Source of the DNA: Loxodes magnus
Taxonomy: Eukaryota > Ciliophora > Karyorelictea > Loxodida > Loxodidae
Length of the DNA: 64,000 nt
Direction: 5' to 3'
Assembly: GCA_946699065.1 (NCBI GenBank)
Contig: CAMPDV010000955.1
Location: 1-64,000 of the forward strand
Shown here piece by piece: positions 28,791 to 61,905 of this stretch. The notes beneath the pieces were generated by a model. It ran no database searches. It was given only the letters and a program-made list of their open reading frames with translations, and was not told the origin of the DNA. How positions within the stretch are numbered: the first letter of the stretch is position 1; every line of letters begins with the position of its first letter. A program made the translations under genes and the position numbers.

Positions 28791-29399
28791 CTAAAATGTT
28801 ATGCTATATTATGTTATAATACTTGTCTTTTTAAATCAATAAGATTTAACAGCATCAAGTCTTTTTCTTATATAATTAAAAATATAGAACTTATTATAAA
28901 AATTGTGATGAAACTCAAAGAGCTGATGGAATCTGCTTGCTTATTTAAAAAAATCTAGATTCGATGTAAACAAAGATATATTTCAAAGAATAAAATGATT
29001 AATTTCTACTAGTAAAAATAGGCAATTTTCATTTCATAACATGCTATATTCCAAATGACGAAAAACCTATAATAGTTAAGAATAATCATATTAAACTTAG
29101 ATCTTTTTCTTAATGTAGTAGGAAACTATCCTGTTATATTAATGGGAGTTTCCAATGCTCTTTTATAAGGTTATGGAAGTAATAATAGATATAAATTATA
29201 AGATAATGCTTTTAATTATTAATTTTCATTGATGTATATAATTTTCAAATAATAAATGATTAAAGCTTTAATAATTTAGGTGCAAATTTAAAGACTTATT
29301 AGGTTTGCAATTTAGCTATACAAAAAGTAAATAACACTAAATTTGAAGGATTCTTAAATAATTTTGAATTAATAAAGAAGAAATTTCGGAAGTTTAATA

Positions 29400-29445
29400 T
29401 AAAGAGCTGCGCACCATTGAGGTTCTACGCACTCTATAATCCAAG
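29400..29445 (+). repeat. CxPLRxYA-coding box
   Basis: Codes for SCAPLRFYALYNPSSFL before a TGA. Related boxes lie at 13768-13818 (+), 52741-52780 (-) and 53391-53425 (+). The DNA also has short inverted GCGC/GCACC-GGT(T/G)C elements that could form a hairpin. Confidence 0.5.
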
Positions 29446-29699
29446 TTCTTTTTTATGATTATATTCTTCTAATTTTAAATCAAAATGCTCATTAAATACA
29501 AGGTAAAATTCGCTAAAAATCTAAACAAAACTGACTACCTTGAAGAATATTATAATTAGCAGAACATAGACTAATAAAATTCTCTCATTGAAATATACTC
29601 CCTAGAAACGGAAAGTAAAAAGATGTAATAGTCATTGCTTGACCTGAATTAACGGATTGAATCTTTGATTTTTACTGTGCAATAATTATAAAGTGAAAA

Positions 29700-30515
29700 T
29701 CAATGACTGAAACAGAAATAAGAAACAAAGCCTCAATCTTTCAACTCAGCGATGAACGGAAAAAACGGAGTTTAAACTAAAATAAAATAATAGGCAAAAT
29801 AATTAGTAATAACTTCTTTTCCTTCATAATAATCCTATGATTGTGGAATAAAAAAATTATAAATTTTTTTTCTAGCAAAAAAATTTTTTTTAAATCAGGA
29901 CATTATACGAAAAACTGCAATTCAAGATGTTTCTACTGCTTTAAAATATGACATTATATAAAAACTGCAGACAATTCAAATTTAAATAAAAATTGGAAAA
30001 ATTGGAAAAAACTGAATAAAATTTACTGCACTTCAAATGGAAAAATATTTAGAAGAAAATAGTACAATGGAGACCAGCTTCTTGAAGACATTGCTAATGC
30101 ATAGGAGAGAAGAACCAGACTAATATTTGGCAAAGACTGAGATTTGAATAAGATTCCAATCGTAAAGAAGGGCTAAATCGCACCAGAAAGTATGTAATAG
30201 AAGAAATTAATCCTGACAAATAAATTCAAGAATATGGAGATAACTACCAATAATTTTTTAATCAACCGTGATTATTTTATTGAAGGCAGTTATCACGTTA
30301 ATTAACTTATCTTATCTTATATAATTTTTATGCTTCCAAATAAGAACAAATAGTTTATATTAAAACTCTAGTTTAGATTGGAAAAAGTTAGCTTGAAAGT
30401 TATCTAATTAGCATTAGAAAAACTAGAAAATTTAATAAATATAAATATAAATATAAATATAATTATTGAAAATACAAGATAAGACAAACCAAATAAGATA
30501 TAGAAAAAATGAACT
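29700..30515 (+). pseudogene. ORF1/Gag-like gene of left LINE copy
   Basis: Forward frames encode KSGHYTKNC, then CFYCFKI-TGA-H (knuckle start at 29928), then YNGDQLLEDIANAQERRTRL and a long tail with FMLPNKNKQF. Relative to the right copy a base is missing inside the knuckle (CATTATATA against CATTTATATA), so the zinc site is frameshifted here; the TGA at 29949-29951 is TAA (Gln) in the right copy. Another TGA follows FGKD in both copies. The tail ends in Asn/Ile codons from an (ATAAAT)n run. The product would be an RNA-binding ORF1 protein; this copy is dead. Confidence 0.6.
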
Positions 30516-30544
30516 AATCATTTCTAAATGTTTTTATAGACAAG

Positions 30545-30563
30545 AAAATTCCTAAATCCATGA
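30545..30563 (+). repeat. 19-bp target-site duplication, left
   Basis: AAAATTCCTAAATCCATGA, identical to 30872-30890 and flanking the 308-bp insertion. Confidence 0.9.
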
Positions 30564-30871
30564 TAATTAAAAAGATGGTGGGAGCTGAGATTGACCTTCT
30601 GAATCATACTTTCTGGTTTTATGGCTAGGAACAAGTTCCTTTCCTGTCGCTGAGAAAGTACCTGGTCAAAGTCAACATTTGCAAGGGAACGCCTTCCTTT
30701 TGATTATCCACTCCTGGTAGGGGCTTGAAGCCTGGCTGCCCATAGCGATGGAGCTCCCTGGCAGCTGCTTTTCGAAAGCAGCAGGATATCCCTGTTATCT
30801 CATGAAGGGAGTGTTGGGGTCGTTAAACTGCAAGAAGTTGCAGTCCAAAACTCTTTAAGTTGAAATTAATT
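30564..30871 (+). mobile_element. SINE-like insertion, structured and GC-richer
   Basis: A 308-bp block of about 45% GC interrupts the LINE and is bounded by the 19-bp direct repeats. The right LINE copy (near 51625-51645) has the uninterrupted site, so this is a real insertion. It has no ORF of note but many potential stems, for example AGGAACAAGTTCCT, CTGCTTTTCGAAAGCAG and ACTGCAAGAAGTTGCAGT. TGGCTAGGAAC (near 30620) and GGTCAAAGTC (near 30652) resemble tRNA-type A and B boxes at plausible spacing, hinting at Pol III transcription. A diverged relative lies at 44770-44860. It was probably mobilised by a LINE of the host genome; the RNA of origin is not identified. Confidence 0.75.
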
Positions 30872-30890
30872 AAAATTCCTAAATCCATGA
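30872..30890 (+). repeat. 19-bp target-site duplication, right
   Basis: Second copy of AAAATTCCTAAATCCATGA. Confidence 0.9.
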
Positions 30891-31345
30891 AAATGCAAAA
30901 TGTATTTGGATTCTGAATTTTCTTTATTTATAAACAACTGAGAAGACAATGTTTTTATTAAAAATAATAAAATTTATGAAGAAGAGTCGAAGAATGTAAC
31001 TTAAAAATTGAAAATATTTTTAAAAATTTTGATTTTTTAGAAAAATATAAAACTACTTATAAGTAAGAATTTAGTTTTATAAACTCAAAAGAAACTAAAA
31101 AAATAATCAGAAAATTGGCAAATAATAAAGAGCATGAAGCAGATGTTATCAAAACTGAGCTCATCAAATATGCTAATAACAAATTTAATAAAATACTTTA
31201 GATATTTATGAATAATCTTAAAAAAACACAAAATTCCAAACTAACTCTAACAATTTAGAATCCTTCTAATTGTAAAATAGGATCAGGGATTAATTGATAG
31301 AACTGGGGATAAATCACACTTATAAATGTTATCCTCAAATTATTT

Positions 31346-32020
31346 CATCTTCTTTTAATGTAAAATATCAAAAAGAAGTAAAAATAAATATTTATTCTAA
31401 TAAAATTTATATTTAATGTTCGTTAAGAATCTTTAAGTTATAAGATAAGCTATGCAAATACATTTAATTTTTATAAATTGTTTGAAATGTTCAAGCGTTT
31501 TCACTATTTTTTAATGATTTTGAAACTTTTAAAATTGCAAATGATTTCGCATAAAAATTAGAAAAATCTAGAAATATTACTATCTAGAAATATAAAGTTG
31601 CTTTATTAATAAAAAATCATACTTAAAGATGTTTCAAATTTTATAATATTAATATAAAATTACAAATTAATAGAATAAATAATTAATGAAAACAAAAAGT
31701 AAATAAGATAATAAATAATTTATAGCCAATTTGATAAAAACTTATATAATAATTTTATGTATAACTAAAAAAATATTTTTTAGTTAAAATTAATAAAAGT
31801 GTATATCTTATTTAAATTTAAAATCCGCATGTGAAAATAATAAAGTTTAAAATAGCGAGAATGAAATTCTATATAATTAGATCGAATTAATATAATTTTA
31901 AATATGAATTAAGTTAAGGTGTATATCTATTAATATAAAAGTTATAAATTGTCAAAGAAAATAATAAAATTTGAATAAAAATAATTTTAGTTAAGATAAT
32001 TAAAGTGATATTTCTATTAT
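31346..32020. other. AT-rich spacer, no gene seen
   Basis: No supported feature. The reverse strand is open for a long way simply because TGA is rare in T-rich DNA. Confidence 0.4.
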
Positions 32021-50379: not shown

Positions 50380-51245
50380 TTATAATTCCTGAAGTCTTTA
50401 ATCTCTTCAACTAAATCTTGCAGAGTTTTAAATTAAGAATAATGTTAATATGTGTCTTATTTCCCGCAAATGCAAATTTCAGAGTTTTTTATCCAATAGT
50501 GACTTTATTTCAAATATTACCTAATTATTTTTTAAGTCTAAATTTTTGTGTTTTGGGTTCTTACTTCTAAAGCAGATATATTCACATTTTCATCATTAAT
50601 ACTCAATTTAAAATATCTAAATACTTCACATGTTGCCCAATTTAATAGATTCTTAATATCTTCATCAGACGGTAATGTTAAGTCATCTACCTTAATTTTA
50701 GAAATGATTAAATTTCTACAAATTGAAAAGAAAAATTACTTCCAATTAGTTTCCAAATTTCTGATAGCAATGTCTTTATGGTATTGGCAAGAACGGACCA
50801 TGTGAACTTCCTTGAAAAACTTCATTGTTACAATCAAATTTTTCGATAATTTTACGTCTAAAAATGGTTATTCACGTTAGGATGATAATAAAATTATTGA
50901 GACAATTTATCGGAGCAAGCGGTAACTTATAGTTAAGTAAGTATCCAAGCGTTTAATCCCTGATAATAGTATCGAAAATTTTATCAAAAACTTCAAGAGA
51001 GATAAAAAGGCGTTTTTCTCATCCAATACTTATGTGTAAGTAAATAATTGATTATAAAATCAAATTTGATACATTGTTTTTCTCTTCTTTAAAAATCCTT
51101 GTTACGAGTGGTTTATAAACTTTCTTTCTAATGTATTCATAATTTTTTAAAGTAATTATTTTATCAAATAATTTGAGGATAACATTTATAAATGTGATTT
51201 ATCCCCAGTTCTATCAATTAATCTCTTATCCTATTTTACAATTAG
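50380..51245 (-). pseudogene. LINE reverse transcriptase domain
   Basis: Reverse-strand translation gives, in order: NWGQITFINVILKLFDKII (51210 onward), equivalent to the N-W-R-P-I-x-L block of LINE RTs; FISLEVFDKIFDT (51006-50971), motif A with its Asp; EVFQGSSHGPFLPI (about 50817-50785), motif B, like QGSPLSPLLF; and VDDLTLPSDEDIKNLL (about 50694), motif C, the x-x-D-D box, followed by FRYFKLSIN, the K-L-x-x-N block. Spacing between motifs fits an RT palm. The residue before VDD is Lys instead of Tyr/Phe/Ala. In-frame TGA occur in EIN-TGA-QNWG, SIG-TGA-EKR and ILT-TGA-ITIF, and a frameshift separates motif B from motif C. The enzyme would have copied the element RNA at the target site. Confidence 0.75.
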
Positions 51246-52936
51246 AAGGATTCTAAATTGTTAGAGTTAGTTTGGAATTTTGTGTTTTTTTAAGATTATT
51301 CATAAATATCTAAAGTATTTTATTAAATTTGTTATTAGCATATTTGATGAGCTCAGTTTTGATAACATCTGCTTCATGCTCTTTATTGTTTGCCAATTTC
51401 CTGATTATTTTTTTAGTTTCTTTTGAGTTTATAAAACTAAATTCTTACTTATAAGTAGTTTTATATTTTTCTAAAAATCAAAATTTTTTAAAATATTTTC
51501 AATTTTTAAGTTACATTCTTAGACTCTTCTTCATCAATTTTATTATTTTTAATAAAAACATTTCTTCTCAGTTGCTTATAAATAAAGAAAACTCAGAATC
51601 CAAATAAATTTTGCATTTTCAAGGATTTATGAATTTTCTTGTCTATAAAACATTTAGAAATGATTAGTTCATTTTTTCTATATCTTTTTTGGTTTGTCTT
51701 ATCTTGTATTTTCAATAATTATATTTATATTTATTAAATTTTCTAGTTTTTCTAATGCTAATTAGATATCTTTCAAGCTAACTTTTCCAATCTAAACTAG
51801 AGCTTTAATATATACTATTTGTTCTTATTTAGAAGCATAAAAATTATATAAGATAAGATAAGTCAATTAACGTGATAACTGCCTTCAATAAAATGATCAC
51901 GGTTGATTAAAAAATTATTGGTAGTTATCCCCATATTCTAGAATTTCTTTGTCAGGATCAATTTCTTCTATTGCATACCTTCTGGTGCGATTTAGCCCTT
52001 CTTTACGATTGGAATCTTATTCAAATCTCAGTCTTTGCCAAATATTAGTCTGGTTCTTTTCTCCTATGCATTAGCAATGTCTTCCAGAAGCTGGTCTCCA
52101 TTGTACAATATTCTTCTAAATATTTTTCCATTTGAAGTGCAGTAAATTTTATTCAGTTTTTTCAAATTTTCCAATTTTTATTTAAATTTGAATTGTCTGC
52201 AGTTTTTATATAAATGTTATATTTTAAAGCAGTAGAAACATCTTGAATTGTAGTTTTTTGTATCATGTCCTGATTTTTTTAATTTTTTCGCATTTAAATT
52301 TTTTTTTCCGATTAGAAAAAAATGATAATTTTTTATTCCACAATCATAGGATTATTATGAAGGAAAAGAAGTTATTACTAATTATTTGCCTATTATTTTA
52401 TTTTAGTTTAAACTCCGTTTTTTCCAGTTCTTCGCTGAGTTGAAAGTTGAGGCTTTGTTTCTTATTTCTGTTTCAGTCATTGATTTTCACTTTATAATTA
52501 TTGAACAGTAAAAATCAAAGATTCAATCCGTTAATTCAGGTCAAGTAATGACTATTACATCTTTTTACTTTCTGTTTCTAGGGAGTATATTTCAATGAGA
52601 GAATTTTATTAGTCTATGTTCTGCTAATTATAATATCCTTCAAGGTAGTCAGTTTTGTTTACATTTTTAGTGAATTTTACCTTCTATTTAATGAGCATTT
52701 TGATTTAAAATTAGAAGAATATAATCATAAAAAAGAACTTGGATTATAGAGTGCGTAGAACCTCAATGGTGCGCAGCTCTTTATATTAAACTTCCAAAAT
52801 TTCTTCTTTATTAATTCAAAATTATTTAAGAATCCTTCAAATTTAGTGTTATTTACTTTTTGTATAGCTAAATTGCAAACCTAATAAGTCTTTAAATTTG
52901 CATCTAAATTATTAAAGCTTTAATCATTTATTATTT
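51166..52936 (-). repeat. 1771-bp inverted repeat, right arm
   Basis: Reverse complement matches 29248-31345 apart from the 308-bp insertion plus 19-bp duplication there and scattered substitutions and small indels. The arms are 19.8 kb apart. Confidence 0.85.
51700..52345 (-). pseudogene. ORF1/Gag-like gene of right LINE copy
   Basis: Reverse strand has KSGHDTKNYNSRCFYCFKIQ, an intact knuckle C-x2-C-x4-H-x4-C at 52240-52199 (CFYC-FKIQ-H-LYKN-C), then, in another frame, RRYAIEEIDPDKEI and EYGDNYQQFF, and a helical tail (LEKLENLINI). The IDPDK motif recurs at 63.6 kb (FDPDKSKF) and 23.1 kb (IDPRIS). A degenerate first knuckle (GHDTKNY) has lost its last Cys; the left copy keeps GHYTKNC. So each copy preserves what the other lost, implying an ancestor with two knuckles. 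Confidence 0.62.
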
Positions 52937-53425: not shown

Positions 53426-53584
53426 AATCAAATTTATTTATTTATTTAAACGTTTAAATAATGTTAATTATATCTCTCTAGAGTAAGTATTAATTATTAT
53501 ACAATTGAAGTTTAAGCAAAACTGATTTTATTATTATCTTTTACCTTTTAATTCTCTAATTGATACACTTTTCTTTCTATCTTT

Positions 53585-54080
53585 CAATGAGGCATAAATG
53601 TAAGAATTGGAGTAAAAAGAAATTTAAATCCGAGACTAAATCAAAATAAACTGTTATGATTAATTAAGAGATGAAGCTATTTGGAATTTGTAAGTTACTA
53701 TTGAAAAGGAAAAAGTGAAACAAAAAGGAAAATAATCAAAAATCTTTATTAAGAAAGAAAAGAAAAAATAAAACAGAGCTGTAAATTTCAACCACTCCAA
53801 TCATAAACTTTCAGAGAAAACTGAATCCACAGCTTGGATTGTAGTGATATTTTAGAGTTAATAGTAAAATAATAGTAAAGAGACAACTTAGATATCTGAA
53901 TAACTGATTTTCAAAGGTTTAAATTTGATAAATATCTAATACAAAAACAAAGCAAGAAAGCTAATGAAATAAAGAAAACCCATTTAAATAATGATAATGG
54001 ATTTTCAAATTAAGATTTATAAGCTTAGGAGATCATTAGTGAAATAAAAATCAAATCTTAAATTTATAAACAATTAATTA
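53585..54080 (+). pseudogene. weak unassigned coding segment
   Basis: Forward frames include MRHKCKNWSKKKFKSETKSK at 53588 and, later, HLNNDNGFSNQDLQAQEIIS ending at TGA near 54087. A GTAAGT at 53691 could be an intron donor joining these frames with an AAG acceptor near 53755, which would give an open product with two TGA; this is speculative. Overlapping open frames on both strands lower confidence. It may be the coding part of another element copy whose 5' box is at 53391. Confidence 0.25.
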
Positions 54081-54081
54081 A

Positions 54082-55014
54082 TCAATGAGTATAAATCTTA
54101 ATTTTAGTTAAATAGATAAAATATTCTAATATTAATGAATATCGTAAATAAGTAATCCTGCATCTTACATAATAGAAGATACTTTCGTAGTTCAATTTTA
54201 AATAGATCTTAAAAAAATATTTTGAGACGTTGTTAAATTAGTTAGCTATAAATTGAATTAACTACTATATCTATTATTTTTGAGTTATTTCTTCCTTTTA
54301 AACATAAAATATAAGAATTTTCCTTATCTTTATCAAAATTACGCATTATTTGTTTTTCTTTCTTTCTATTTTGCTTTAGCTCAGCTGGATAAGCATTTTA
54401 TCCTTTTCTCTTAATACTATACTTTAATTAGTTCTTGTATAGATTTTAGGTTAATTATTTAAGGAGCTGAAATCAGATAGTTATTTCTTTTCTAATTATT
54501 CCATGCTTTCCATCAGTTAATTGAACTTGCCTTTAGTTGAATTATTCCTCCTAGAAGTCTTTTTACTTTCTTACTTTTCTTTATTTTGCTGATATTTCTC
54601 CTTCATCTTAGACGTGAAATAGTTGAAAAATTAATTAATAGGAATTAATCTTGGCTAATTTATTTCTAATTAATAGCATAATTTAGAGTTATTTTATCTA
54701 GCTCCTGTTAAAAAATAGTATAATGTCTAATATATTTTATTTATCTTACAGAAAGGCTAAGTACTTTAGAAGAGATTAAGTAAGTAATATAGTTCAAATT
54801 TTATATAACTAGTTAGGTAAAAAGAATTAATCTTAAGATCATCAAAGTACTTGCTTTTAGAAGATACTTCTCTCATTTAAATAAAATCTCTATGTGTTAA
54901 ATTACTCCATTATATATTTACTATTATCCTTAGTTTATTAATAAATAGTAATAAATGTTTATTATATAATTCATCTTTACTATCTGTTCTGCTTTAATTA
55001 AAAATTATAATATA
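54082..55014 (-). CDS. unassigned ORF, divergent to the kelch gene
   Basis: The reverse strand is open for 310 codons between TGA 55015-55017 and TGA 54082-54084; the first Met is at 54876. It includes PRLIPINQFFNYFTSKM and then a Lys/Gln/Ser-rich part (NKEKQESKKTSRRNNSTKG, NQLMESMEQLEKKQLSDF). The last 100 codons are Tyr/Ile/Leu-rich and less convincing. The frame was verified at seven positions. No family recognised. It points away from the kelch gene, so the two could share the AT-rich interval 55020-55455 as a promoter region. Confidence 0.38.
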
Positions 55015-55455
55015 TCATCTATTTTATCTTTTTATCTTAAAATAGCACATTTGCTTTATATGTTTACTATAATTTGAAAAAGCTTTTCATTAAATCAATT
55101 TTATATAAGCTTGGTTAGATACCTATTTATATCTATATTTAGTTTATATAATGTTTACTTAATAAAATTAGAATGATATAGTTATATCTAATTTTAAAAG
55201 CATCTACTGTTTCTTTTCTGTCTGTTCTTTTTATTAGTTTCATCTATTTCTAAGTATTTAGTTTTATAAGTAATATATTCCTTTTATAGGTTATTTTATT
55301 CCATTTTATGTAATAATTTTAAAAGTAGTTAATTTTTCTATTTAATTTAATAACTATTTTCATTCAATTAGTTTAATTTAAATTATTTTCTTAAGTTATT
55401 TCAATCCAATCAAATATTAAGTATCATTTTTATTTTTTACTTAATAAAAAATTAA

Positions 55456-57825
55456 ATGTCAGCGGCCAAGTGTGAAGCATGTGTGAAAGATTTCAACTAA
55501 GAGCTTAGAAAGCCTAGGTAGTTGGACTGTGGATGCATTCTCTGTGAGAGATGTTTGAAAACTGTCTACAACATATAAAAAAAAATTACTTGCAACGTTC
55601 ACAACATCACCATAACAAGACCAATTGAGTCATTACCAATTATGAACTGAGTAAGGCAATAGGCATAGAACCTTATCAATCCTTAGGACATATGCTAGAT
55701 TCATAGATAATATTCCTTATCTCTATATTGCGTATAGGACAGCATAAGAATATGTGTATAATGTTAATTGATATCGCATTAAGGACATAGATGTATCGCT
55801 ACGTAGGATGCAATTTAGCATTTAAAGAGTTACTTGGAATCCACTTTTAGAGCTATCAAGTAGAGACTAATCTAATATAAATCTACATTGAATCAAGGGC
55901 ACAGATAGTTAAGTTAGTAGTGGAAATCGAGAATAGACAATAAGGTTTAAATATTGCTGTATATATAAAATATCTAGTAAGAATGTTAGAAGATGGTGAA
56001 TAACTAATAAAACTAAATAAAGAAGTAAATGTAGTTACTTAAAGAAACATCTGATTACTATCAGATGATAGAAAGCTAGATAGATGCTATCTCAAATAGT
56101 TCTTAGGATAATATCAATCAGTGTGAGAATAAAAGGAACTAGTTGAATCAATTTGAGTTAACAATCTAGGATAGGTTCTAGAGTATCTCCTAATCATCTT
56201 CTGTTGTATGTCAAGAGAATTTAAGTCAATAGGCACTCTAGAACTAAATAGTTTTTCATCTAACGCAGTAGCTTTAGCCTAACCAAGTATACTAGAGTTA
56301 AATGGCCTAAGCAAGCTAGATCAAGCAACTATAGTTAGCTATAAAGCGTTTATACTAAGACATGCAGAAATAGCACCTCTAATACGAAAATAAAGAATTA
56401 GCATATCGCAATCAAATCACCTCCTTAGAGCAATAGATTTCCTATTATTTTAGTCAGATCAATTATCCAAATACTTAGATCAGCAGGCAGAATAAGACAA
56501 TTTAGGATCTAACTGATTAGCTAGCAAGGACTAAATAGGAAAATGCTCAAGTCATCTAGCAAAATGCATATGAATATCAGCTTTAGTTGAAGAATAAGGA
56601 CAACTACTATCAGGCCTAATAACTATAATATGCTTAAGAGATATAAGAGCTTCAACAGCAAAAAACCGTTCTTCAATAGGAATTAACTCTTAGTAGATAA
56701 TCTATCAATCAGTTATAAGTTTAATTATCTAAATTATAATAAGAGAACTTGAATTACTAAGAGTAGACAAAGATCTTATTGAAGGAGTAAGAGGTTCTAA
56801 AATCAGCTAATAAGTAATTGGAAGCTGATAATAAAATCCATTCTTAATAGCTAAGGTAAAAAGAACAATAATTAAAAGACTTACCATTGGCTTTGGAATA
56901 GTCTAAATCTTAGACTAAATAGATAACAGTTTATAGGAGAGTATTCTGCAATACCAATAAGATCTAAAGTTACAAGTTGGACAGTATCAATGGTTCCTGT
57001 GTTTACAATGTGGTAGCATCAATGACTCCAATATATACAAATTGATCCTCGACACATTAGATCACTGATGAGTTACTAATCTAGGTGGGTGGTTACGATA
57101 CTAAATCATATCTGGATAAGATCTTATAGATAAATTTTGGTAGTGTAGGTAGCGATTCAGTGATAAAAGCATAAGCTTCTTTGATCTAGCCAAGAGTAAT
57201 TAGATAAATGGGATATGACAATGACAGATTGTTGTATATATTAGGAGGAAGTGATCCGTAATCTTATTCTGCATCATCTCATCCTTATTGAAATTACCTT
57301 AATTCATTGGAGGTGTACGACATAGTTTTGAATGAATCTGTGTCATTGTTGAGTAATAAGGATTGTATCGCTGGTAATGGAATATGGGTATCATATGAGA
57401 GAGTCTGGATAGTGGGTGGTCTAATATAAAGTTCAGATTTATCTAATAATTTCCATAGATCAAGTTTGGTATCATCATATGACGTGATGTTGAGTGTGTA
57501 TTAGTAGTATGGGATGGAGTTACCTAAGCCGGCAGCTTCTTTGGCAAGTGTGTGAGTGAATGATACTGAGTGTGCCTATATTTGGGACAAAAATAATCAT
57601 CTTTAGTAAACCTGTGTGTTTGACACTAGGTCTATGATAAGGGATGGTAGTTAATACCCATAATAATCATATCCTTTCTGATACAATGGTCAATATGTGA
57701 ATAATGTTATATGGATGTGGAGTAGTAATTATAAAGCTTAGGCAAATGTGATATACTATTACGACGTAAAAGTTGGTTCTTTGAAGGATAGAGAGTGGAA
57801 ATCTATGCAATTGGGTGTGAGTTGA
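55456..57825 (+). CDS. RING / B-box / coiled-coil / kelch protein, five in-frame TGA
   Basis: ATG at 55456 follows an A-rich leader; one frame runs 790 codons to TGA 57823-57825 with no indel, using TAA/TAG as Gln throughout. Codons 6-49: RING-type cysteines (CEAC, DCGCILCERC, C46, H49). Codons 80-111: B-box with C80, H83, C92, D95, C100, C103, H108, H111. Codons about 115-505: Gln-rich coiled coil. Codons about 505-790: kelch-like repeats (QVGGYDTKSYLDK, LYILGGSDPQ, VWIVGGLIQ). TRIM-like RING plus B-box proteins are usually E3 ubiquitin ligases and kelch repeats bind substrates or cytoskeleton, so such a role is inferred. TGA at codons 65, 530, 612, 700 and 742 (55648, 57043, 57289, 57553, 57679) either encode an amino acid (Trp fits; TGG also occurs seven times) or make this a pseudogene. 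Confidence 0.85.
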
Positions 57826-57877
57826 TTTTCTCTTAATGAGGACAGTTATAAGTAATTATATTCTAAGTTATTAAGTT

Positions 57878-58048
57878 ATTAAAGTATTTAAAGTATATTT
57901 AAAGTATATTATAAAGTATTATAAAATATTTAAAATATTTAAAGTATTATAAAGTATTATAAAGTATTATAAAGTATTATAAAATATTATAAAGTATTTA
58001 AAATATATAAAGTATTTAAAATATTTAAAATATTTAATATAAAGTATG
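57878..58048 (+). repeat. AAAGTATTAT microsatellite
   Basis: Decamer AAAGTATTAT repeats cleanly about five times (57941-57990) within a longer degenerate run of AAAGTATT/AAATATT. It begins 50 bp after the kelch gene's last TGA, so it lies in the presumed 3' UTR or just beyond. Confidence 0.85.
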
Positions 58049-58940
58049 GATATAATTGGATATGTATATATATATTATAAATTGAGTATATGTAATAGTA
58101 TACGTATAGTATATGTATAGAAGTATGTATTTATAGTATGTATACAAAATTATAGATGTAATATTTTGTTGAGTATGTGGTAACTGATAATTATGTGACA
58201 ATTATGTAAAAGTGTAAAATAGTTTTGAATTAATTATTATATTTTATGAATAAGTGAATGAATTTAATTTTGTTTTTGAGAAGTGAGTATTAAATAGTGT
58301 GTTTAATGAGTTGTGTGAAATGGATATTAAGCAAGCTAAGAGAGTTAGAGAGAAGCAATTTATGAATTTAGTAGTGAGTAATTGAGTGATGGAATAACTA
58401 AATTTTTGTAAGGTTAAATATTATGTTGGTAGTGTGGATAATAAGAAAGTAAAGTTTGAGAGAGTAGAGTGAATTGTATTAAGTTTGAGAGTAGAGTAAG
58501 TTTAGATTAAAGTATGAGGGAGTGAGTATTTAAGTTTTAAAAGTAAGTAAAATATTTTGTTGTTATAAGAAGAGTGTATGAGGCGAGTGAGTTAAATGAA
58601 GTAAGAAAGAACAGAGAAAAGTAAGAAAGAAAAGTAAAAAAGAAAAAAGCAAGAAAAAAGAAAAGTAAGAAAGAAAAGAACAAAGAAAAGAACAAAGAAA
58701 AGAAAAGAAAAATAAAAAAAAAATTTTGTAAGAGAAAAAATGTAAGTAAGAAAGGGAAAAAATTTTAAAGTAAAAAAGAAAAGAAGAAATAGAAAGGAAA
58801 AAAATTGAAAGAAGGGAGAAGGAGTGTGAAATAAATGAGTACGGAGAAAGAGTGAGTGGAGTTAAAGGAAGAAAAGTAGAAGAATAAAAAGGGTGCAATT
58901 TAGTGTATAGAATTAGTTGAAAATTCTGTGAAAAATAAAA

Positions 58941-58980
58941 AAGCCTGTTTTGCTCAGCGTTTTACACTACAAGAGATTTT
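58941..58980 (+). repeat. CTCAGCGTTTTACAC box, copy 1
   Basis: AAGCCTGTTTTGCTCAGCGT then TTTACACTACAAGAGATTTT; 36 of about 40 bases match copy 2. Confidence 0.8.
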
Positions 58981-59369
58981 CGGGAAGGACAAGAGGAGGG
59001 TTAGAAAGTGGATAGGGGGTGGGTTGGAATGAATTATGGGTAAAAAAAAATACTTGTATTGGATATTTTTTGAAAAAGGTAAAAAATTTAAGAAAGGGAC
59101 AAATTTGTTGGTTTAATGAAAATAGAGTTAGGAATAAAAAATTTGAAATTTATTTTCCTAAAAAATTTTGTGAATGAGCGAGAATACATTTTTTTTGAAT
59201 GAAAGGTATTATAAAATTTATTTTGATTTTTAAAAATGAGTAAAAAGTAATTTGTGATAAGAGTAAGAGAAGGTGAAAGGAAAGATTAATGGAGTGTTTT
59301 TGGGATGAATCGGGTGTTAGAAGGAATTTTTTTTAGAAAATGAGAAGTGTTATAAAAGCGAAAAATGGT

Positions 59370-59412
59370 GAAAGCCTTTTTTTTCTCAGCGTTTTACACT
59401 GCAAGAGATTTT
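59370..59412 (+). repeat. CTCAGCGTTTTACAC box, copy 2
   Basis: GAAAGCCTTTTTTTTCTCAG then CGTTTTACACTGCAAGAGAT and TTT, 432 bp after copy 1. A weaker third copy (GATTTACACTATAGAAGAATTTT) lies at 59780-59802. Confidence 0.8.
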
Positions 59413-59479
59413 TTGTGATGGTCTAAAAATTTTGGAACGGACTAAAAAATTTTGAAAAATTAAGTAAAAGGGGTAAAAC

Positions 59480-59890
59480 GTAAATATATTAAATAAAAAA
59501 ATAAAAGAATCATGAATGATGAAAAAATAATTTAGAAAATAGAATAAAGTAAGTTCCGATATAATAAAAATATTAAAATATTTATAAATTTAATTATTTA
59601 GACTTATTGATAAGAAAAACTAAGTTAAAGAAGAATTATCTTATAAACTATTTATAGAAGTATAAATAATTTGAATATAAGAATAGATAATGATGAAAAG
59701 AGATAACTAACTAAATAAGTAAAAGAAACCAAAAAAAAATATAATTAAGAGAGAAAGGAAAAGTGTAGAGTTTTTTTTTTGGAAGATTTACACTATAGAA
59801 GAATTTTAGGATGGACTAATCTTGGATGGTTTGTTTTTAATTGATTAAAAATAATAATAAATTTGTTATATAATTTAATTTAATTTAATA
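59480..59890. other. AT-rich, weak third box only
   Basis: Contains the diverged box at 59780-59802 and otherwise AT-rich spacer. Confidence 0.45.
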
Positions 59891-59894
59891 TAAA

Positions 59895-60705
59895 ATAGCA
59901 TCTAAGAAATAATAGAATTCTCCAACAAAATCTAATAATTGATCAACTTTGCTAACGATTTCTATTGTTACAATTGGATAATTATAAGCTAGCAAAAAAA
60001 ATTTAAGACTTTAAATAAATAATTTAATCTCTCATGCTAACCATTAACTAATTTGTAAATTAATAGGACTCTAAGCAAGAAATTAAATAATAGACTATTT
60101 CCTTAGAAATAGATAGAAAGGTAGAATGGTCAAATCGAATGAAATTTAAGATAAAATTTTTTCCAGAGGATCAGTTAACTGGAGCATATCAAGCTCAGTT
60201 AACTATCAAATTCAGAATCATAAGGAGAAGAATCAGAATTAAAACTTATTCTATTAGAAAAGAAAAATTAAATGTTGATATTGCTATAAGTATGGACACA
60301 AGTTTAATTAGTGTTAACGATTTAAGAAGAAACAAACTTAAGTAACTGAAAGAGAAATCTAAAATTTATTCATAATCTTATGCTTCCAAACAGAAGACTT
60401 TACAAGAAAATCATTTTCACCACTCTTAGAAACTCCAAAAATCTAAAATACATTGAGAGATACAATATGGATTCTACTTACAAGAATTAGCAAGAGGAGA
60501 AAATAAAAATGTTATAAGAATTTGCGAACAAAAAATCCAGAAGTTCACGATCTCGAGATCTATTGATTACTAAAAAACTCTATAAACTATTAATTCATGG
60601 TTAGCCAAATAAAAATGACGCCACATTAAATATTATTATATTAATTTAAAGTAAAAAAGGAAAATAAAATTTGAAAGACAACGAAGTAAACGTAAATTAA
60701 AGTGT
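59895..60705 (+). pseudogene. retroposon ORF with coiled coil and 3' end
   Basis: 59895-60140 reads in one frame as coiled coil (LDNYKLAKKIQDFKQIIQSL). After a frame change near 60145 a second frame gives FFQRISQLEHIKLSQLSNSE, a TGA, then KFIHNLMLPNRRLYKKIIFT, ERYNMDSTYKNQQEEKIKML and SRSSRSRDLLITKKLYKLL, ending at the conserved LIHGQPNKNDATL over the 3' terminus (60594-60629). The MLPN motif recurs in the left LINE arm (FMLPNKNKQF). The Met-initiated 68-codon frame at 60139 is the same segment in a third register. Decayed, with one frameshift and two TGA. Confidence 0.52.
60594..60629 (+). repeat. retroposon 3' end, GTGG...CCAC type
   Basis: TTCATGGTTAGCCAAATAAA then AATGACGCCACATTAA, followed by ATATTATTATATTAAT, a tail like that of the 63.6-kb copy. 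Confidence 0.65.
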
Positions 60706-60709
60706 AATG

Positions 60710-61120
60710 TGAAGAGAATAATAGGATTTTTAAGGAGTTTAATAGTAAAAGAGAATAAGAGAAACGTAAGAAGACAAGAAGCATTAAAATTAAAAAAATT
60801 GCAAAGACAAAAGTATTGAATATTAGCTAAATATAAAATTAAATAAAAAATTAATGATTAAAAAGATATCTTTATGAAAGAGAAGAGATGAAAAGAAGAT
60901 AAAGACAATAATCTTTTAACTTTTCAATTTAAAAAAGAGAAAAGATAATAAGATAGATTGAAACATCATAAAATGGATTTTTAATAAATAGAAGATAAAA
61001 TTTAATCAATTTATATAAAATATATAAAGAAAAATAAAAGGATGAGTTTTATCTGACTAGAACTCATCAGCTGTAGTTCTTTCCTAGTATTTAAAACATT
61101 TCTTAGACATACTAATAAAA
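60710..61120. other. AT-rich spacer, no gene seen
   Basis: No supported feature. Confidence 0.4.
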
Positions 61121-61123
61121 ATA

Positions 61124-61320
61124 AAATGGTGACTAAGAAATAATAGACTTCACAAAATAAACTTATTAAAACTTAATAGGATATAATCAATGATCTCAAC
61201 CAGTATTAGAATAGAGAATTATAAAATATAAAAGAAAATAAAGATCTTTAAAAACTAACTTATGAAATGTAACATCAAAAGAAATTTAAAAGAAAAAAAT
61301 AACACTACGATAGGAATTGA
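61124..61320 (+). CDS. small coiled-coil ORF
   Basis: ATG at 61125 opens a 65-codon ciliate-code frame ending at TGA 61317-61319: MVTKKQQTSQNKLIKTQQDI, then NDLNQYQNRELQNIKENKD and a basic end (KKFKRKKQHYDRN). It is hydrophilic, helical and Gln-rich. This layout resembles the start of an ORF1, so it may be the 5' end of another retroposon; no second copy was found to confirm. Confidence 0.36.
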
Positions 61321-61329
61321 ACAAAACAA

Positions 61330-61905
61330 ACAAATACATCAAATTTAAGTTGAAAATATAAAGAAAGAATAAAAAGTAAAAGAAATTAAAAATAATAAAA
61401 GCTAAAAAGAAAAACTTGAAAAAAGTGTCTAATTTGAAAAAACATAACAAACTTTAAAAAAATATATTCCCAATCGGAAAAAAATAAAATCTTGAAATTT
61501 TGAAATTTTGCAAGCTTTAATTAAATAAAGTAAAAAATTGTAATATATTAATAAAAAAATAAAATAAAATAAAATATCTTAATCAAATAAAATTGCATGA
61601 TGTGCTATAAAAAAGTAAAATAATTAAAATGTACTTTATCTGAAAAAAACACAAACAAAGCAAAAAGCTCATTAAATATAAAAAAAAATAAAAAATTCAA
61701 TGAAAACTATTGTGTCTTGGTCTATCGAAAAATTAAAAAAAAAGACCTTAAAAAAAGATACAAACAAGAAAAATTTTAATTCAAATGAAGTAAAATTATA
61801 TCTAATTTTAAAAAAAATATATAAACAAAAAAAATGTTATGCCATTTATTAAAGATCAAGAAGAAGAAAAGAAGACGAGATTCAGTAATAAAGGAAGTTA
61901 TAGTA
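61330..61905. other. A-rich stretch, no assigned gene
   Basis: Plus strand is extremely Lys/Asn-rich in translation. No motif or repeat partner. Confidence 0.4.

Follow-up and report, generated by a model that had tools for sequence, protein, structure and literature searches.

The stretch of DNA analysed here, referred to below as the window, comprises the first 64,000 nucleotides of contig CAMPDV010000955.1 of the karyorelict ciliate Loxodes magnus. On its forward strand, positions 55456 to 57825 hold a gene that was delimited by translation, Pfam and a search of the organism's own genome: a single frame of 790 codons that begins with ATG and carries TGA exactly at codons 65, 530, 612, 700, 742 and 790, as given in a preliminary description. 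The five internal TGA codons occupy 55648..55650, 57043..57045, 57289..57291, 57553..57555 and 57679..57681, and the terminal one (57823..57825) is read as the stop on account of its position. Directly 3' of the gene lies an AT-rich microsatellite on the same strand (57880..58034, 15.9 copies of a 10-bp unit), in agreement with the earlier remark that the last TGA adjoins an AT repeat. Also 3' of the gene, positions 58000-60000 show a very strong GC skew of 0.68 over 2 kb and are purine-rich and apparently non-coding.

The encoded protein consists of four parts, all on the forward strand: a RING-type zinc finger (codons 6-49, 55471..55602), a B-box zinc finger (codons 76-114, 55681..55797), a Gln-rich region (codons 115-490, 55798..56925) recognized in the translation, for which a coiled coil is inferred rather than computed, and a kelch-like propeller region (codons 491-789, 56926..57822). 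In a Pfam scan run with TGA translated as tryptophan, the B-box exceeded its cut-off (34.3 versus 24.1 bits), and the RING (16.2 versus 25.2) and the best kelch match (17.1 versus 25.3) remained under theirs. The closest PDB sequence matches are designed kelch propellers, one of them at 8.6e-10, and TRIM proteins; these structures are too distant to decide from their alignments which residue stands at the TGA sites. The RING ligands C6, C9, C25, C27, C30, C33, C46 and H49 are invariant in 22/22 copies of the gene, as are all 15 Cys/His positions of the RING and B-box fingers up to codon 111; beyond it, a single one of the 22 copies departs at C113 and a single one at H122. The arrangement of RING, B-box, long middle region and kelch-like C-terminus is shared with TRIM/RBCC proteins that carry a C-terminal propeller, the difference being that RING and kelch stay below the Pfam cut-offs here and that a ligase role is suggested by the domains. 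On this basis, the product is probably a TRIM-like E3 ubiquitin ligase.

The gene stands out from its surroundings by composition, with a GC content of about 31-35% by region compared to 21.5% for the window (base counts). In genetic code table 27, UAA and UAG specify glutamine. The sense use of both triplets is seen in the gene frame, which contains 94 TAA and TAG codons compared to 37 and 51 in the two other frames. TGA is depleted in the gene frame, with five internal occurrences against 44 in the alternative frames (24 and 20; two-sided binomial p 0.0004). A codon-usage scan scored about 0.02-0.21 per codon in windows sampled within the gene and no higher than 0.02 beyond its limits, whichever strand was read, a contrast that is partly circular because the scan was trained on the gene itself.

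A search of the genome with the window protein returned 122 match rows and unveiled a family of at least 57 copies, counting the best-scoring candidates only. Nearly the full query length is matched in one frame by 22 of the 57 (L009-L030), which carry three to six TGAs each; one further copy (L031) matches codons 100-787 and the other 34 match in pieces. No relatives were found by a scan in viral contigs. A second copy lies on the same contig (about C955:92847-102261) and shares with window positions 53433..61829 several aligned pieces, the main ones 75-89% identical. Convincing terminal inverted repeats around this duplicated unit were absent among the 25 longest of 140 pairs, which are AT-rich and imperfect.

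The codons found at the TGA columns were compared in an alignment of all 57 kelch regions minus three exact duplicates, i.e. 54 distinct sequences; as the copies are related, the counts are not independent. TGA occupies both codon 700 and codon 742 in 54/54, and TGG never does. Codon 530 is TGA in 38, Phe in 9, Thr in 3, Cys in 2 and Ala in 2, and codon 612 is Tyr in 35, TGA in 9, Cys in 4, Arg in 4 and Phe in 2. At codon 65, TGA occurs in the window copy alone and Leu (TTA/CTA) stands in the other 21 copies aligned there. At the five sites, homologues thus show TGA itself, always at 700 and 742 and mostly at 530, or else Phe, Tyr or Leu, with a few Cys, Arg, Thr or Ala. Since TGG is missing from all five sites in every paralogue aligned, tryptophan at these sites follows from the code.

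The constancy of 700 and 742 could also be taken to mean that certain UGAs, notably these two, are retained because they are read inefficiently, so that regulated shorter products lacking the last kelch blades arise. Columns that keep a single codon are, however, common in this young family (among invariant kelch columns 6/8 Trp, 5/13 Gln and 2/4 Lys), and the Trp codons 710, 755 and 781 are just as uniform in being TGG in 54/54. Such a regulatory role is given only a slim chance; if it were true, the ambiguous code would act as a regulator of the kelch family via partial termination.

Under the preferred reading, in which internal UGA is simply a tryptophan codon, the frame of the family should be maintained, and this could be examined in several ways. 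The fairest one is provided by the split copies, since their two parts were free to lie in any frame: the N-terminal and kelch parts fall in the same frame in 34/34. In the copies that match in one frame, gaps within the coding sequence relative to the window copy are multiples of three in 21/21 alignments, compared to mostly 1-nt gaps in a 740-bp upstream flank in the same copies, a result favoured by the way these 21 were found. In the first alignment, which comprised 27 copies, pairwise dN/dS, calculated with TGA as Trp, has a median of 0.35 ahead of the kelch region (319/351 pairs) and of 0.56 within it (335/351 pairs). The coding sequence diverges by about 0.10-0.12 in 20/21 comparisons and the upstream 740 bp by about 0.05-0.08 in the same 20; as the coding part is the more diverged, protein constraint is moderate. 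The divergence of this upstream flank (window 54716-55455 and the matching flank in L010-L029) also lies below that of 4-fold sites with base composition matched. The gene frame is, to judge from these comparisons, under selection, although it is fast-evolving.

These data bear on the possibility that UGA is always a stop and that the window copy decayed into a pseudogene through nonsense changes alone. The TGA at codon 65, private to the window copy, would fit a decaying gene, and any single copy may be dead. Against this, neither frameshifts nor lost constraint characterize the family, whose dN/dS is moderate; the shared frame of the split copies, the gaps in threes, the invariant zinc ligands, the TGAs fixed at 700 and 742 and frequent at 530, and the TGAs at Trp columns of actin described below all contradict it. 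For the family as a whole, the sequence evidence speaks strongly against decay, and for the window copy a pseudogene is even less probable than the short forms considered above. Two further statements of the preliminary description concern the setting of the gene. That all mobile elements of the window carry indels was not confirmed; no transposon domain came up in those parts of the window that were scanned with Pfam. That the copy is a germline one is probably wrong: the assembly of 705,730,643 bases corresponds in size to the published MAC assembly (706 Mbp) and not to the MIC assembly (848 Mbp), both of which are repeat-rich according to the genome report (PMC11441545). Elsewhere in the window, a repeat is present as two copies in opposite orientation (29247-31348 and 51163-52936; 94-98% complementary in the three longest blocks), and Pfam on six frames of 29000-31500, which covers one copy, gave no match.

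That UGA stands for tryptophan is suggested by columns other than the five of the window gene. Codon 753 is TGG in 49 and TGA in 5 of the 54 kelch regions, codons 651 and 644 are each TGG in 53 and TGA in one, and codon 148 is TGG in 17, TGA in one, GGG in 4 and CGG in one of 23 copies. This alternation of UGA and UGG at Trp positions is what table 27 predicts and is seen in actin as well. Other columns count against a Trp reading: codon 397 is Gln in 21/23 copies and TGA in the remaining two, and TGA occurs in one to seven copies at the variable non-Trp columns 499, 527, 547, 668, 695 and 787.

Actin relatives provided independent genes. From 96 family places listed, 18 were fetched, mostly chosen for a listed TGA, and 17 of them were compared to the remaining one (L059) as reference, which itself carries 7 TAG and 2 TAA and in this way shows the same sense use of UAA and UAG as the window gene. 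Two TGAs at the reference's own terminal TGA were left out. Among the 22 aligned internal TGAs, eight coincide with the four Trp columns found in the reference and the other 14 with non-Trp columns (Phe three times, Gly and Val twice each, and seven further residues once each); none coincides with a Cys column. With Trp at 4 of about 375 columns, the probability of such an overlap by chance is about 5e-11, a value to be read with caution given the near-identity of several loci and the damage in some. About 40 actin places (on C266, C711, C437 and other contigs), many of them along the same contigs, have nearly equal scores and no listed TGA, while TGA does occur in several of the divergent relatives. 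This distribution is consistent with an avoidance of UGA in probably highly expressed actin.

The least probable alternative, that UGA encodes another residue such as Cys or selenocysteine, can draw on the few Cys codons at 612 (4/54) and 530 (2/54) and is contradicted by the exchange of TGA with TGG at the otherwise fixed Trp columns 644, 651 and 753 and by the actin TGAs, which favour Trp columns and spare Cys. Tryptophan remains the preferred meaning of internal UGA.

Counted back from the stop of the window gene, the first TAG is reached at 28 codons, the first internal TGA at 48 and the first TAA at 53, and the nearest internal TGA in any of 27 copies lies at 37 codons. The final 20 codons of these copies contain TGG 27 times and no TGA, TAA or TAG, the TGGs representing one Trp column of one family; the final 36 codons, a limit chosen after the fact, contain 68 TGG, no TGA, 3 TAA and 25 TAG. 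In Loxodes magnus, UGA and UAA, in contrast to UAG, are reported to be depleted for about 20 codons before stops (PMC11441545). The lack of UGA and UAA before the stop in the family agrees with this pattern as weak evidence; the contrast to UAG does not show in this one family. Some copies would terminate three codons sooner, at a TGA in a column otherwise occupied by Gly, Ser or Asp.

The decoding machinery was searched for in the same genome. A tRNA-Trp with a UCA anticodon was sought with one pattern, by which tRNAs of another shape would be missed: it gave 8 matches compared to 22 in a reversed control, and ARAGORN recognized no tRNA in 8/8. The pattern for tRNA-Trp with the CCA anticodon matched 132 places, of which 100 were listed, compared to 18 in the control; when the topmost pair of the anticodon stem had to be mismatched, there were 124 matches compared to none. 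Within 5/7 fetched stretches, ARAGORN identified 7 tRNA-Trp genes, six with a 4-bp anticodon stem (C67 and C148) and one with a 5-bp stem (C110). The organism's own genome thus contains tRNA-Trp(CCA) genes whose anticodon stem is mismatched in its top pair. The suggested tRNA able to read UGA was not found by the one pattern as a UCA-anticodon species and was found, as a candidate, in the 4-bp-stem tRNA-Trp(CCA), which according to PMC13092985 and PMC12005148 had already been reported in Loxodes by Swart et al.

Many of these genes are organized in tandem (loci L105, L106, L110 and L111). The array at C67:482313-491186 contains 48 copies of the 4-bp-stem tRNA-Trp(CCA) with a spacing of about 187 bp and an A.C top mismatch. 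A second array, at C148:155454-169431 and perhaps beyond, contains at least 51 copies at about 241 bp with a T.C mismatch, among the 100 of 124 matches listed. A literature search that did not cover Swart et al. returned no published description of such tRNA-Trp arrays. The amplification is not special to Trp, as tRNA-Lys(UUU) is also present in many copies. An Rfam tRNA search in which 63 of 42,786 candidates were scored is silent on Trp, since all 7 fetched places turned out to be tRNA-Lys(UUU).

Two places matching eRF1 (L120) were located at C196:19713-20081 and C196:54613-54981; in the one that was read, Ala takes the place of human Ser70. A further eRF1-family match (L119) presumably represents Pelota and was not used.

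Comparable systems have been described. In Blastocrithidia, the eRF1 change is Ser70Gly (PMC12153298). The likeness to Loxodes lies in a tRNA-Trp(CCA) in which the top pair is left unpaired and an eRF1 altered at human Ser70, and the difference in the residue, Gly rather than Ala, and in the use of UAA as stop. Condylostoma magnum and Parduczia (PMC4967479) resemble the present case in that the stop meaning is confined to the vicinity of the transcript end and that a nuclear UCA-anticodon tRNA-Trp was not detected, here with one pattern; unlike here, UAA and UAG serve as stops too in Condylostoma (PMC4967479). The closest system is the karyorelict code of table 27, with UAA and UAG as Gln, as used by Loxodes magnus. 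The genome report (PMC11441545) gives UGA as the sole stop, yet Trp far upstream of the poly-A tail, coding sequences at 33.5% GC, and a depletion of in-frame UGA and UAA close before the stop. The window gene, GC-richer than its AT-rich flank, appears alike in these respects, in the last of them on weak evidence, and no difference from the table 27 system was found.

With high confidence, the locus can be interpreted as a working member of a RING/B-box/kelch family in which UGA would mean Trp inside the gene and stop at its end. UAA and UAG would encode Gln, and UGA would encode Trp far from the transcript end, probably by means of the tRNA-Trp(CCA) with the 4-bp anticodon stem and helped, probably, by an eRF1 with Ala at the UGA-recognition position, human Ser70. 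At codon 790, just before the AT-rich 3' end, UGA would stop translation by virtue of its context. The preliminary description had offered both an amino acid reading of UGA, with Trp as the fitting residue, and a context-dependent stop at the last codon. Both draw support from the paralogues, the relatives of actin, the tRNA-Trp genes and the code published for Loxodes; the rival idea of a copy with nonsense changes only was not sustained. What the DNA itself displays is the upkeep of the family frame, the alternation of TGA and TGG, the TGAs at actin Trp columns, the 4-bp-stem tRNA and the eRF1 residue; the translation of the five internal TGA codons as Trp is the most likely reading of these features.

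The dual meaning of UGA in Loxodes and other karyorelict ciliates is already known biology. Because Loxodes is known to read UGA as Trp, the window gene is most likely intact, with normal codons in its five internal UGAs; and because the dual code has been published, the gene is ordinary for Loxodes, an illustration rather than a discovery. For ciliate genes in general, in-frame stops without a frameshift call for a check of the genetic code before a pseudogene is diagnosed. With its at least 57 copies, the family lends itself naturally to testing at which sites UGA is tolerated.
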